Below, piece by piece: positions 2,171 to 6,847 of a stretch of DNA of 60,819 bases; position 1 is the stretch's first letter, and each line of letters opens with the position of its first letter. The notes under the pieces were generated by a model. The model made no database searches. It saw only the letters and a list, made by a program, of their open reading frames with translations, and had not been told where the DNA came from. The DNA comes from Zetaproteobacteria bacterium (GTDB lineage Bacteria; Pseudomonadota; Zetaproteobacteria; Mariprofundales; Mariprofundaceae), in NCBI GenBank assembly GCA_021545585.1, contig JAJRTF010000026.1, forward strand, positions 1 to 60,819, in the 5' to 3' direction. The position numbers and the translations under genes were made by a program.

Positions 2171-2197
2171 CAAAAAGAGCGGCCCGAAGGCCGCTCT
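2171..2197 (-). terminator. Rho-independent terminator of the PuuD-like gene
   Basis: A perfect 9-bp stem (2176-2184 with 2189-2197) closes a UUCG tetraloop when read on the minus strand, and is followed by TTTTTG. It lies 35 bases after the stop of the PuuD-like gene and isolates it from ynfA. Confidence 0.9.
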
Positions 2198-2231
2198 CTG
2201 ATTGAACGATGTTTCTGTTTGGTCGCTGATA

Positions 2232-2801
2232 TCAGCCTGTGAACAGACGGAAATGCGCCGAAGAAGCCATCAGCAGCAGCATCGGGATGGACAGGATGGT
2301 GTTGGTGCGCGATGCAATCAGTGCACGTTTGCCAAGTGCCGCCTTTTCCTCAGCCGTTGCTTCAACAATACCCAGTACCTTCTTCTGGGCAGGCCAGATG
2401 ATGAACCAGACGTTGAACCACATGATGATACCGAACAGGCCGCCAATACGGATATCCCAACCGGCAGCGCCAGTATTCTGCAAATCCATATAAAGCATGA
2501 TGCCGAAGATCAGGGTCAACATAGCACCCCAGCGGAACCACCACAGGACGCGACGAACAACGCTGTTTTCCTTGAACAGCTCGCCCTTGGTTTCTGCCGA
2601 CAGGCCGCCCATTGACGGAACCTGACAGAAGTTCAGGTAATAAAGCAGGCCGATCCAGGTGATACCGGCCAGGAAGTGCCCCCAGCGAGCCAGTTCGTGA
2701 ACGCCGGGCATATTGCCATTGGAAGCCCCAATGCCGATAAACACAGCCGCCAGCACGAAGCCGGCGATCAGTGCGAGTTTATGATCTGTAAAGATTTTCA
2801 T
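2232..2801 (-). CDS. PuuD-like (urate hydroxylase N-terminal type) membrane protein without a cytochrome domain
   Basis: A 189-residue integral membrane protein with about five helices. It begins in a histidine-containing loop (HELARWGHFLAGITW, H35 and H42) that resembles the membrane half of PuuD urate hydroxylase. Full-length PuuD carries a C-terminal cytochrome c domain; none is present here, because the protein ends at HFRLFTG and a strong terminator follows. GGGGGA lies ten bases upstream of ATG 2801, which is preferred over the in-frame codon at 2819. No purine-degradation gene is nearby, so a urate role is doubtful; a quinone- or haem-linked redox role is inference. A diheme cytochrome is divergently encoded next door. 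Confidence 0.7.
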   Translation of the reverse strand: MKIFTDHKLALIAGFVLAAVFIGIGASNGNMPGVHELARWGHFLAGITWIGLLYYLNFCQVPSMGGLSAETKGELFKENSVVRRVLWWFRWGAMLTLIFGIMLYMDLQNTGAAGWDIRIGGLFGIIMWFNVWFIIWPAQKKVLGIVEATAEEKAALGKRALIASRTNTILSIPMLLLMASSAHFRLFTG

Positions 2802-2890
2802 TATTTTAGAATCCCCCATGAAGATTTATGGCGCACCCTAATGCTTAGGATGTGGAATAACCACCCAATACAAGTAGGGGTTTAGCGGTT

Positions 2891-2920
2891 TTGACAGCCC
2901 TGCGCCACAGCTTGCATAAA
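2891..2920 (+). promoter_or_regulatory. Candidate sigma-70 promoter for cytochrome-nadK-recN
   Basis: TTGACA at 2891-2896 is followed by an 18-base spacer and CATAAA at 2915-2920. It is about 95 bases upstream of the diheme cytochrome start, in the divergent intergenic region shared with the PuuD-like gene. The -35 box is perfect; the -10 box is only fair. Confidence 0.45.
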
Positions 2921-3016
2921 CACTGGATATGCCATACCAATCGCTTATTATTCATCTCATTCGCTGTATCGGCCGCCTTGCATCGCGGCGGCGTACGGCA
3001 TCCCGAAGGGGGATAT

Positions 3017-3295
3017 ATGGCAGCTGAGCCCAAACAGCCTTGGCGACCCGGCAAGCGGGATGTAATGTTTTTGGCCATTGTGGCGAGCGTGATTCTGCTG
3101 CTGGTGCTGGGCACGAGCGAGCGCACGACGAAACCCGTCCCGAACGACGAGACCCACAGGCAGGCGAGCTCTCGTGCAGCCTGCATGGCCTGCCATGACA
3201 GCAGCGGTATCCACCCGCAACCTAAGGGGCACACCAGGGCTGACCAGTGTTTTCAGTGTCATACGCAGCCGAGTGGATGGCATAAGCAGCAATGA
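3017..3295 (+). CDS. Small membrane-anchored diheme cytochrome c
   Basis: A 92-residue protein with one N-terminal transmembrane anchor (about 16-32), then a short periplasmic tail with two c-type haem motifs, CMACH (56-60) and CFQCH (78-82). Extra histidines (H47, H66, H72) are candidate distal ligands. The compact layout resembles NapB/NrfB-like or NapC-anchored electron shuttles; the partner is unknown. The start is chosen from the strong AAGGGGGA site just before ATG 3017, although the frame is open further upstream. Its stop overlaps the nadK start by four bases (ATGA). Maturation requires a Ccm system, not seen in this window. Confidence 0.82.
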   Translation: MAAEPKQPWRPGKRDVMFLAIVASVILLLVLGTSERTTKPVPNDETHRQASSRAACMACHDSSGIHPQPKGHTRADQCFQCHTQPSGWHKQQ

Positions 3296-4176
3296 ATTGT
3301 ATCGGTATCAGCAGCAAGCTCGGTGATAAACGCGCCATTGAACTGGCGGTTGAATTGCGTGCATGGCTGATGGCGCGCCAGTGCACGGTCAAGGTGGATT
3401 CGAATCTTGCCGATGTGATCGGCATAGGCACGACTGCCGATGATATTCTGCCGCTTGGCCAGATGGCCGATCAGGTGGAACTGGTTGTCGTGCTTGGCGG
3501 AGATGGCACCTTGCTGCATGTGGCCCGCCAGTTTATCGATTCACAGACGCCCATCCTCGGCATCAATCTCGGACGGCTTGGCTTTCTGACTGAAACGCCG
3601 ATCGGCAGCATGTTTGATGCTGTGGCCGAGATTTTAGATGGTAATCTGAAAACCAAACATCATTTCAGCCTGCATGCTGAAATCTGGCGCGGCGATGAGA
3701 AACTCGGCGAAGGGTTTGCGATGAATGATGTGGTGCTGCAACGGCGTGCGCATCCGCGCATGATCGGCTTTGAGCTGCTGGCCAGGGATCAGCTTGTTTT
3801 TCGTATGCGCGGTGATGGGCTGGTGCTGGCTACCCCTGCCGGTTCCACGGCCTATGCCCTGTCCGCCGGCGGCCCGATTGTGCATCCGGAAGTGGATGCG
3901 ATCAGCGTCGTGCCGGTGTGCCCGCACACCCTGTCCAACCGGCCGATTATCGTGCCGGCCAATGATGTGATTCAGTTGCGTCTCATTGAATCGCCGCTGC
4001 CTGCTTCGCTGAATCTCGACGGGCAGGAGCATATGGTGGTCAATGAGGGCGATCGGGTGCTGATTCGCAAGGGCGGCATGATTTCTCTCGTGTATCTGCC
4101 TGAGCGCCATTATTACCAGGTGCTGAGAAGCAAGCTGAACTGGGCCGGCCAGGTGGAAAAAGGGCCTGAAAACTGA
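3292..4176 (+). CDS. nadK: NAD kinase
   Basis: A 294-residue ATP-NAD kinase making NADP in the cytoplasm. The GGDGT motif is present in VLGGDGTLLHVARQF (about 66-80), followed by LGINLGRLGFLTE and the conserved TPAGSTAYALSAGGPIV block (about 180-196). Its length matches the bacterial family. It is translationally coupled to the preceding cytochrome (ATGA overlap), and recN begins 25 bases after its stop, the nadK-recN order seen in many bacteria. Confidence 0.96.
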   Translation: MNCIGISSKLGDKRAIELAVELRAWLMARQCTVKVDSNLADVIGIGTTADDILPLGQMADQVELVVVLGGDGTLLHVARQFIDSQTPILGINLGRLGFLTETPIGSMFDAVAEILDGNLKTKHHFSLHAEIWRGDEKLGEGFAMNDVVLQRRAHPRMIGFELLARDQLVFRMRGDGLVLATPAGSTAYALSAGGPIVHPEVDAISVVPVCPHTLSNRPIIVPANDVIQLRLIESPLPASLNLDGQEHMVVNEGDRVLIRKGGMISLVYLPERHYYQVLRSKLNWAGQVEKGPEN

Positions 4177-4200: not shown

Positions 4201-5898
4201 ATGCTGACATCGTTGACCGTTCGGCAATTCGCCCTGATGCAGGGTGTCCAGATGGAACTGGATGCGGGCATGACTGTGTTTACCGGTGAAACAGGCGCGG
4301 GAAAGTCCATACTGATTGATGCTCTGGGAGCTGCATTCGGTGCGCGGGCCAGCGCCGACTGGGTACGCCATGGCGCCGAACGCGCCGAGGTGATTGCCAC
4401 ATGGTCGGGAAAACCCGGCAGTATGATCGAGCGCCGCATCGCAACAATACTCGAAGAGCAGGATATTGAGCCGGACGATGAATTGATTCTTCGCCGTATC
4501 ATCGGCAAGGACGGGCGCTCCCGTGCTTATGTCAACGGCGTACCGGTTCCGCTGAAGGTGTTGCAGACGATCGGCAGCCTGTGTCTTGATCTGCATGGCC
4601 AGCATGAGCATCAGGCGCTGCTGCATCCCGAGTTTCAGCGACAACTGCTTGATGGCGGTATCGATGAGAAGACGCTGAAAACTGTGCGCCAGGCGTATGG
4701 GCGCTGGCAGGCTGCAGAAAGCCAGCTGGCAAGCCTTAATCAGGATCGGGGCGAGACTGAACAGCAGGCGGCCTGGATGCGTGAAGAGCTGGCCCGTCTG
4801 GAGGTATTACAGATCGAAGAAGGGCTGGCTGATTCCCTGCAGCAGGAGGTAGAGGCCGGTCGCCACCATGCCCAGATTCAGCAGTCCGCCGCTGAAGCGC
4901 TGTTGCTTCTTGATGAGGGTGATCCAAGTGCACGTGATTTGATGGCGCGCGCCGGCCACTGCATCACTCAGAGCGAGGCCTATCATCCGGGCCTCGAGAG
5001 CAGCCGCGAAATGATGGACCAGATAGATGCCATTCTCGGTGAGCTTGGCGGTGAACTGCAGCGGGTGCTGGACAGTTCATTCGATGAAGCCGGCCTGCAT
5101 GCGGCCGAGGAAAGGTTAATGCAGTTGCATGAAGCCATGCGTCGGCATGATGCCGATGAGGCCGGCCTGCTGCATTTGATGGATGAATGGCAGCAGCGAC
5201 TGTCGGCGCTCGATACAGCTGAATGGGATGAGACAGCCCTGAAAGAGGCGCGGGACCAGGCCGAGGCGGACTATCGCAAGGCAGCCGGGAAGCTGTCCGG
5301 AGCCAGAGAGAAGAAAGCAACGCTGTTGTGCAAGGCCTTGCGCCCGTTTCTGGACCGGCTGGCGTTGGCAGGTATGCAGGTGAAGTTCGAGGTGCGCCCC
5401 TGTGATACACCATCAGGCTGGCTGGCCAGTGGCTGGGATGAGGTCGAGATGATGTTGATGTCGAACCCGGGTGAACCGTGGCGACCCTTGTCTGCCGTTG
5501 CATCCGGTGGTGAATTGTCGCGTCTGGTGCTGGCATTAAAGGGCTGTGGCGCAGTGGCTGATATGCCGCATATTGCTGTATTCGATGAGGTGGACACAGG
5601 CATCGGCGGTGAAACGGCCTGGTGCGTGGGTGAGCTGCTGGCATCCATGGGCCGCGACAGGCAGGTGTTGGTGATTTCACATCTGGCGCAGGTGGCAGCC
5701 AGTGCCGATGCCCAGGTCATTATTCGCAAGGGCGAGCAGGACGGGCGCACGACGACGAGCCTGGAATCCATCGTCAGTGAGCAGCGGCAGATGGAGGTGG
5801 CCCGCATGCTTGGCGGCCATGATGAAGAAGATATTCAACATGCTGCCAGGATGCTGGAGCGGGGCAGTGCACTGCGCGATGCCGCACTGAGTCGTTGA
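4201..5898 (+). CDS. recN: DNA repair protein RecN
   Basis: A 565-residue SMC-like ATPase for double-strand break repair. Walker A is GETGAGKSIL near residue 31, the QHEHQALLHPEFQRQLLD segment follows, and a long coiled-coil-rich middle (about 155-375) leads to the C-terminal ATPase half with the signature ASGGELSRLVLALK, Walker B IAVFDEVDTGIGG and the H-loop LVISHLAQVAA. The length is normal. The stop shares one base with the next ATG (TGATG). No LexA-type box is obvious in the short nadK-recN gap. Confidence 0.96.
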   Translation: MLTSLTVRQFALMQGVQMELDAGMTVFTGETGAGKSILIDALGAAFGARASADWVRHGAERAEVIATWSGKPGSMIERRIATILEEQDIEPDDELILRRIIGKDGRSRAYVNGVPVPLKVLQTIGSLCLDLHGQHEHQALLHPEFQRQLLDGGIDEKTLKTVRQAYGRWQAAESQLASLNQDRGETEQQAAWMREELARLEVLQIEEGLADSLQQEVEAGRHHAQIQQSAAEALLLLDEGDPSARDLMARAGHCITQSEAYHPGLESSREMMDQIDAILGELGGELQRVLDSSFDEAGLHAAEERLMQLHEAMRRHDADEAGLLHLMDEWQQRLSALDTAEWDETALKEARDQAEADYRKAAGKLSGAREKKATLLCKALRPFLDRLALAGMQVKFEVRPCDTPSGWLASGWDEVEMMLMSNPGEPWRPLSAVASGGELSRLVLALKGCGAVADMPHIAVFDEVDTGIGGETAWCVGELLASMGRDRQVLVISHLAQVAASADAQVIIRKGEQDGRTTTSLESIVSEQRQMEVARMLGGHDEEDIQHAARMLERGSALRDAALSR

Positions 5899-6407
5899 TG
5901 CCGCATCGGATTTGTATCCGTCATGCCGGTGTTGCAGATGTGGATGCCATGCATGCACTTTTGTCGCCCTTTGCCGAAAAGGAAATTATTCTGGATCGGG
6001 ACAAGGACAATATCTGCCAGCATCTGCAGGAATTTCTGGTAGCCGAATATGACGGCAAACTGGTCGGTGTTGTGGCAGTGCATATCTATGGCCAGTCACT
6101 GGCAGAGGTTCGTTCGCTGATTGTTGATCCATCCTTTCAGAAACATGGTGTCGGGGCTCTGCTGGTCGAAGCAAGCGAGAAGCAGGTGGCTGAACTGGGC
6201 GTCAGTCAGATATTCGCACTTACCTATGTTACCGGCTTTTTTGAAAAGCAGGGTTATAGGGTGGTTTCCAAGGAGAGCCTGCCGCACAAGGTATGGACCG
6301 TCTGTGTGCATTGTTCGCGCTTTGCAGATTGTGATGAAGTGGCGGTACAGAAACAACTGTCCGCAGAACCTCATATTGTGCCCGTTCTTGAGTTTGATCA
6401 GGTCTGA
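5898..6407 (+). CDS. Short GNAT N-acetyltransferase, ArgA (N-acetylglutamate synthase)-like
   Basis: A 169-residue stand-alone GNAT domain that opens IRHAGVADVDAMHALL. The acetyl-CoA-binding segment EVRSLIVDPSFQKHGVG (about 74-90) matches the short ArgA-type amino-acid acetyltransferases, which catalyse the first step of arginine synthesis. The later segment TYVTGFFEKQGYRVVSKESLPHK matches the ArgA consensus around the substrate loop. The amino-acid-kinase domain of classical ArgA is absent, as in the short family. A TTG at 5895 is in frame, but ATG 5898, coupled to the recN stop, is chosen. It is the last gene of the cytochrome-nadK-recN run. Confidence 0.8.
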   Translation: MPHRICIRHAGVADVDAMHALLSPFAEKEIILDRDKDNICQHLQEFLVAEYDGKLVGVVAVHIYGQSLAEVRSLIVDPSFQKHGVGALLVEASEKQVAELGVSQIFALTYVTGFFEKQGYRVVSKESLPHKVWTVCVHCSRFADCDEVAVQKQLSAEPHIVPVLEFDQV

Positions 6408-6487: not shown

Positions 6488-6847
6488 TCACAGGCCATAT
6501 GTCGTTTCATGATCCATGTCTTTCCAGACATACCGTTCATGTACGATATCATCGTTGGGAACAACGAAGGTTGCCAGTTCGACCGCGCCCACTGCTGTGC
6601 GTCCAACGGTTTGAAAAGTACCCTTCACCGTACCCAGTGTAATACCGGAAAAGATGTTGCGCTCCTTGCTTTCCAGAGCGATGTCTTTGGGAAGTTCAAC
6701 CCAGCCGGTGACTGTATTGGCCAGTCCGCGGGAGAACTTGACTCCGATTCGATTACCGTAATCGTCCGCTGCCTGGGAAATACTGATGCCGGTCAGGCTT
6801 AATCCGGCGAGCATGGCAATAGTGATAGTTAAATGATATAGCTTCAT
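6488..6847 (-). CDS. Exosortase system-associated protein, TIGR04073 type
   Basis: A 119-residue secreted protein with a signal peptide (about 1-26, ending ISQA). The mature part has the family core KFSRGLANTVTGWVELPKD, then GITLGTVKGTFQTVGRTAVGAVELATF and a VPNDD tail. TIGR04073 proteins were named because they occur in genomes with PEP-CTERM/exosortase systems; their function is unknown. No exosortase or PEP-CTERM substrate is in this window. It stands alone between convergent and co-oriented neighbours; AAGGAG precedes the ATG. Confidence 0.7.
   Translation of the reverse strand: MKLYHLTITIAMLAGLSLTGISISQAADDYGNRIGVKFSRGLANTVTGWVELPKDIALESKERNIFSGITLGTVKGTFQTVGRTAVGAVELATFVVPNDDIVHERYVWKDMDHETTYGL

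Follow-up and report, generated by a model that had tools for sequence, protein, structure and literature searches.

A short DUF989 membrane protein and an order-specific diheme cytochrome as divergent neighbours in Zetaproteobacteria

The closest described system to the membrane protein analysed here is PuuD, which carries a fused C-terminal cytochrome c and whose gene, puuD, is reported in PMC4562309 to be required for urate degradation. The Discussion of that paper (Doniselli et al., 2015; PMC4562309) also mentions a “shorter DUF989” group, whose members retain helices I, II, V, and VI, lack a cytochrome, and sit in a gene context unlike that of puuD. We followed up a 60,819-nucleotide stretch of a zetaproteobacterial genome (the window), for which the original prediction proposed that a membrane-only PuuD-domain protein and a divergently encoded, anchored diheme cytochrome, 215 bases apart and with no purine genes around, could form a split redox unit with a new substrate.

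The arrangement itself was confirmed: the window encodes a membrane-only Urate_ox_N/DUF989 protein (MEM) and an anchored diheme cytochrome (CYT) as a divergent pair separated by 215 bases (Table 1). Neither gene is a chance open reading frame, with relatives in the same order at 57–84% (MEM) and 46–73% (CYT) identity. The MEM frame reaches upstream to a first ATG at 2819 (2232-2819, 195 aa), but the second ATG (M7) is invariant as the start among MEM relatives in an alignment of 33 sequences, so the gene probably spans 2232-2801 and encodes 189 aa. This start yields exactly the 215 bases to the CYT ATG, which was taken as the start of CYT rather than that of the longer TTG frame (2891-3295). 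Because a terminator-like hairpin follows it, MEM may well be a single-gene transcript; the region holds three such hairpins, against 1.3 expected from shuffles. CYT heads an operon that continues with nadK, the recN-like gene, and the acetyltransferase gene. A shared divergent promoter for MEM and CYT was rejected, the intergenic region holding a single weak sigma-70-like match; promoter-like matches in the region number two vs. 1.0 (sd 1.0) in shuffles. Further along, at 6488-6847 on the minus strand, the window encodes a protein of the exosortase system-associated family TIGR04073 (75 bits, cut-off 50).

Table 1. Coordinates of the MEM and CYT locus within the window
Feature	Position	Strand	Basis or remark
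MEM, short DUF989/Urate_ox_N membrane protein	2232..2801	-	Pfam match; probable start from 33-sequence alignment
His48 codon of MEM	2676..2678	-	sole invariant membrane histidine
His189 codon of MEM, end of last membrane helix	2253..2255	-	in only part of the family
Terminator-like hairpin 3′ of MEM, 11 pairs then T-rich	2174..2199	-	consensus match only
MEM-CYT divergent intergenic region, 215 bases	2802..3016	.	sequence
Weak sigma-70-like match pointing to CYT	2924-2951	+	one match in the intergenic region
CYT, N-terminally anchored bis-His diheme c-type cytochrome, 92 aa	3017..3295	+	sequence and alignment
CYT first haem motif, CMACH	3182..3196	+	sequence, alignment
CYT second haem motif, CFQCH	3248..3262	+	sequence, alignment
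nadK (NAD kinase)	3292..4176	+	CYT stop overlaps the nadK ATG at 3292; fixed neighbour of CYT
recN-like gene, after nadK in the operon	4201..5898	+	Pfam SMC_N, synteny; the name recN is our reading
N-acetyltransferase gene, next in the operon	5895..6407	+	NCBIfam NF005840, 185 bits; synteny

MEM matches Pfam Urate_ox_N (PF06181) with 53.8 bits (cut-off 26.9), and the match covers only positions 158-242 of the 295 in the profile. Alignment of nine short proteins, MEM included, with six full-length PuuD-type proteins from other genomes shows a common membrane core, in which 13 columns are invariant in all 15 sequences (H48, W55, G57, G106, G126, M133, N136, P143, Q145, S170, N173, P179, and M184). 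In contrast, the HGGG, SGRxA, HNN, and CXXCH motifs are present in all six full-length proteins and in none of the nine short ones. The transthyretin-like urate-pathway enzyme HIUase (PF00576), a further point of difference from PuuD, was found in none of the 78 genomes of the order, that of the window included, while the control set was positive in 4 of 14. The absent motifs and the missing HIUase together rule out MEM as a PuuD or urate oxidase, and the predicted lack of purine genes is borne out as regards HIUase. Because the urate-oxidase motifs are absent, any substrate of MEM must differ from urate, in line with the new substrate originally proposed. Short DUF989 proteins nevertheless bear the name of the urate-oxidase domain.

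Judged by its sequence, MEM is a member of the short DUF989 group already noted, known but uncharacterised. Its relatives are widespread, with at least 594 stretches encoding them confirmed in GTDB genomes. Our sample of named loci comprises 80 kept among the MEM-relative matches listed, 75 of them outside the class by title. The nearest named relatives among the matches listed are 56–81% identical to MEM and are titled Zetaproteobacteria, Mariprofundaceae, or Ghiorsea. In a record titled as a Klebsiella pneumoniae MAG (L150), a title that may be wrong, there is a short DUF989 gene with 49% identity to MEM.

The AlphaFold2 model of MEM is a confident bundle (pLDDT 93.9) with long helices at 13-33, 40-70, 87-116, 121-148, and 156-189 (195-aa numbering). 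A Foldseek search with this model gave no significant match (best E 0.07, TM about 0.4), and a cytochrome b6-type bundle, with a VIA Z of up to 11.9 (rmsd 3.3, 136 aligned), ranked below designed helix bundles. Of the membrane histidines to which the original prediction drew attention, H48 is conserved without exception in the 80 named relatives and in all six full-length PuuD-type proteins, whereas a second His near the end of the protein (residues 184-192) occurs in only 38 of the 80 named loci, in 36 of them (of 80) at the column of H189. R96, R171, N63, Q66, N136, and Q145 are invariant along with H48 in the named relatives. Given the helix order and a predicted inside N-terminus, H48 and the last-helix His would lie towards the periplasm, a position from which a haem or metal could reduce a cytochrome; haem binding by MEM is possible.

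An early invariant His and Trp in a small membrane protein are also features of HemJ (UPF0093), and the first-helix patterns (H...W...Y) of MEM and HemJ do align in a profile alignment. That MEM is a HemJ-like protoporphyrinogen oxidase or another enzyme of haem synthesis is nevertheless very improbable: the profile comparison is non-significant (hhalign E 0.34 and 0.19), and HemJ is encoded by a separate gene in the genome of the window and in 45 of the 78 order genomes, while MEM was not found in 20 of the 78. We rejected this identity as unsupported. HemJ was found in none of 23 searched genomes of genus g10, where another protoporphyrinogen oxidase is presumably present.

CYT combines one membrane anchor (helix 13-32) with two CXXCH motifs and two further invariant His, so that a second His is available for each haem in all 33 aligned sequences. 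All 33 share H47, C56, C59, H60, H72, C78, C81, H82, and W88. Bis-His ligation of haem probably gives a low to middle potential. The AlphaFold2 model of CYT, built without haem, has a pLDDT of 82.5 and matched no PDB fold at E ≤ 0.001. A NapB-type origin was discarded on the same fold comparison and on a profile search in which 1jni appeared only at E 1.5.

The CYT profile was found in 75 of the 78 order genomes, the three misses being assemblies of 69–73% completeness. Outside the order, weak partial matches turned up in 2 of 320 sampled genomes of the phylum, within open frames 178-704 residues long (best E 8.8e-5 and 7.4e-4), and none of the 320 yielded a full-length CYT relative. Of the 41 CYT loci read, 40 have nadK immediately downstream in the same orientation; the sole exception stops at the contig end. 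In the genomes sampled, CYT is thus specific to the order and part of the nadK operon, and its presence in nearly all order genomes within a housekeeping NAD-kinase operon makes it a candidate universal part of electron transport in the order. CYT-nadK (window 3017-4176) is also a possible marker of the class. At the genus g9 loci L084, L085, L100, L101, and L113-L116, a cinA-like (NMN-deamidase-related) gene lies directly upstream of CYT-nadK, so that two NAD-related genes flank the cytochrome.

MEM was found in 58 of the 78 order genomes. Both genes occur in 57, CYT only in 18, MEM only in one, and neither in two, and the pair, which the original prediction expected to be kept in relatives, is conserved in part. 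Where both are present, they are adjacent and divergent in 36 genomes of nine genera (gaps 154-812 bases), on different contigs in 20, some of which may reflect assembly breaks, and on the same contig 187 kb apart in one. In genus g9 the separation is no contig break, because cinA adjoins CYT there, at the expected position of MEM, in all eight CYT loci read. In genome G010, a single contig of 99% completeness, CYT is present but MEM gave no match.

In 15 of 15 separated MEM loci of the order that were read, no cytochrome gene adjoins MEM. The CXXCH frames found there were rejected as replacement cytochromes, since they read as ribosomal-protein-L31-like, helix-hairpin-helix-like, or alcohol-dehydrogenase-like frames or as short doubtful ones. 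On a 32-row MEM tree the adjacency label needs nine changes, at least four of them forced by well-supported branches, and it does not cluster clearly (75 of 500 shuffles were equally low). The other flank of MEM carries gmhB-plsC in 9 of 31 MEM loci that were read from the order in addition to the window; two of those nine (L062 and L071) have CYT elsewhere, and at L097 gmhB-plsC faces CYT with MEM missing. Read most simply, the gene order plsC-gmhB-MEM/CYT-nadK-recN was inherited as a block and broken repeatedly; MEM-CYT adjacency would then be ancestral synteny, and this speaks against a dedicated MEM-CYT unit in the order.

Such a unit would be a two-gene PuuD: in genomes that keep the pair adjacent, the two proteins would form a complex in which MEM oxidises the substrate and CYT accepts the electrons. 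The divergent adjacency kept in nine genera is much retention for inherited synteny and could mean shared regulation, and MEM keeps the last-helix His in the order members aligned. CYT, however, is locked to nadK-recN and occurs without MEM in 18 of the 75 genomes that have it, one of them single-contig; the genes are non-adjacent in 21 of 57 genomes, the separated MEM loci lack an adjoining cytochrome, and the CYT profile finds nothing better than E 0.1 at any of the 75 named MEM loci outside the class. We consider the complex improbable, and a dedicated unit in this order unlikely, because only 36 of the 57 genomes have the genes adjacent and 18 have CYT but no MEM. CYT at least does not require MEM, and the two may exchange electrons where both are present.

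Beyond the order, we screened the 80 named loci for CXXCH frames within 1.5 kb of the MEM relative. The screen flagged 14 loci: four order members with CYT, L139, L140 (a doubtful frame), and eight with a small lipoprotein cytochrome. Five of these eight are Rokubacteria records, and the other three bear the titles Spirochaetales, Gemmatimonadetes, and Deltaproteobacteria. The lipoprotein has one CXXCH and an invariant Met. The eight sequences form one family in which 23 columns, among them the lipobox Cys, CXXCH, and Met, are invariant; the two that were checked match Pfam cytochrome c. The family is unrelated to CYT; homology was discounted, as a profile match at E 3e-6 is confined to the stretch around the first haem motif. 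Loci at which a lipoprotein cytochrome c adjoins short DUF989 are L131, L137, L162, L180, L186, L153, L159, L200, and L265-L293. A search with the lipoprotein profile in 31 genomes behind named loci gave no strong matches beyond the eight already known.

In the phylum of L131 (Rokubacteria, which we take to be Methylomirabilota in GTDB naming), 55 of 95 genomes hold a short DUF989 match with E below 1e-30. Among the best 30 of these 55 loci, 28 carry a convergent gene for the lipoprotein cytochrome 13-177 bases downstream. One of the two misses has 72 bases of contig left, and the other has 1500 bases with no cytochrome. Four of the 30 loci come from genomes that built the lipoprotein profile; without those, 24 of 26 are positive. 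The pairing does not extend to the L159 phylum (titled Gemmatimonadetes), where 12 of 249 genomes have a strong short DUF989 match and only one of the 12 loci, from the genome behind L159 itself, has the lipoprotein; the other 11 have no CXXCH frame within 1.5 kb. The orientation of cytochrome and short DUF989 is convergent in the L131 phylum and co-directional in L153 and L159. One phylum thus shows the association firmly and three other records show it sporadically, while the remaining named loci did not show it; it offers a testable idea of short DUF989 function. We found no description of the MEM-CYT pair or of the lipoprotein association in the literature searched, which was largely without subscription journals or supplements, where CYT might be listed by number.

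Since short DUF989 adjoins an unrelated small cytochrome elsewhere (8 of 80 named loci; 28 of 30 in the L131 phylum), and the fused form exists in PuuD, a membrane core with a separate cytochrome is plausible as a working unit. The part of the original prediction that stands is this architecture; the part that does not is the assignment of these two particular genes as its dedicated pair. A split redox unit is a live hypothesis for the MEM family, for which the Rokubacteria-phylum pair is the better test case. A His within residues 184-192 was found in 12 of 12 loci with adjacent CYT or lipoprotein cytochrome vs. 26 of 68 others (Fisher p 4e-5; the loci are phylogenetically non-independent). 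The last-helix His is present in 30 of 30 loci of the L131 phylum and in 12 of 12 of the L159 phylum, 11 of the latter without an adjacent cytochrome. Because the loci are related and those of the L159 phylum also carry the His, its association with cytochrome neighbours may serve as a lead only.

Outside the class, only eight of the 75 named loci have the lipoprotein cytochrome, with L139 adding a peroxidase-like haem c frame; because 11 of 12 Gemmatimonadota loci also lack a CXXCH frame, a general electron-donor role of the MEM family would rest on a minority of lineages. The frame at L139 (1-669) reads as a haem c peroxidase-like protein about 300 bases upstream of short DUF989 in one Alphaproteobacteria record, a genuine but single case. 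By clustering, with one example of each scanned, the recurrent neighbours in named loci outside the class are SecD_SecF_C, DUF498, SQS_PSY, IspA, Aminotran_3, Asn_synthase, and Sod_Fe. Loci of Alphaproteobacteria type, e.g., L127 and L133, have short DUF989 near DUF498 and squalene/phytoene-synthase-family genes. The DUF498 and squalene/phytoene-synthase families have relatives in mitochondrial complex I assembly (NDUFAF3 and NDUFAF6), and because of these neighbours a role of short DUF989 in respiratory assembly, by analogy, may be worth a look.

These housekeeping neighbours, the single invariant membrane His, and the generic helix bundles among the structural matches would all suit a non-redox MEM, acting in membrane assembly, transport, or sensing, with its nearness to cytochromes in some groups incidental. 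We think such a function unlikely, in view of the homology of MEM to PuuD, whose gene urate degradation needs according to PMC4562309, and of the cytochrome neighbour from an unrelated family that recurs, in differing orientation, in almost all loci read from one phylum and in three records of other groups.

The explanation we moderately favour is that MEM and CYT are two separately working redox proteins, neighbours through inherited gene order, with MEM delivering electrons to periplasmic cytochromes and CYT acting as a separate anchored relay. MEM would oxidise a non-urate substrate in or near the membrane and pass the electrons to any available c-type cytochrome on the periplasmic side. 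CYT would be a relay specific to the Zetaproteobacteria order, with a single anchor, its positively charged N-terminus predicted to lie inside, and a periplasmic domain of about 50 residues holding two bis-His haems, for which H47 and H72 would be the extra ligands. Made from the nadK-recN operon, it may move electrons between inner membrane complexes and periplasmic carriers. In iron oxidisers the relay could, speculatively, serve the uphill branch to quinone and NADH. As to the periplasmic carriers of these bacteria, Cyc1 is described in PMC7029218 as missing from the group that includes Ghiorsea.

A wider generalisation, in which we place little confidence, makes short DUF989 the catalytic module of a membrane oxidase, with the cytochrome module exchanged at least twice: a fused class I cytochrome c in PuuD, a separate single-haem lipoprotein in the Rokubacteria phylum and a few scattered records elsewhere, and, in Zetaproteobacteria, an anchored diheme protein with bis-His ligands. 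The last-helix His, shared by all examined forms that have a cytochrome neighbour but not confined to them, may then belong to the electron exit. If this were true, short DUF989 in Zetaproteobacteria would feed electrons from a donor into the respiratory chain of iron oxidisers.

Set beside the known systems, CYT resembles the c7, c3, and Paired_CXXCH proteins (PF14522, PF09699) in its CXXCH pairs with extra His, and 23 of the 33 CYT sequences match Paired_CXXCH_1 and 19 match Cytochrome_C7 at E ≤ 0.01. The CYT of the window, in contrast, falls under the Pfam cut-offs (19.9 vs. 24.8 and 18.4 vs. 20.6 bits), and CYT differs from the multihaem members in its single anchor and in having only two haems. 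These sequence comparisons place CYT among the small multihaem c-type cytochromes, as a new member restricted to one lineage. The membrane domain of PuuD has eight helices, and its I-II and V-VI loops are cytosolic. MEM keeps the helix core I, II, V, and VI in common with PuuD, but lacks helices III-IV and the HGGG loop, which are present in all six full-length proteins, and has no fused C-terminal cytochrome c. In its partial domain match, its four core helices, the missing cytochrome, and its different gene context, MEM agrees with the short DUF989 proteins as described, from which its AlphaFold2 model differs by one extra predicted N-terminal helix beyond the four.
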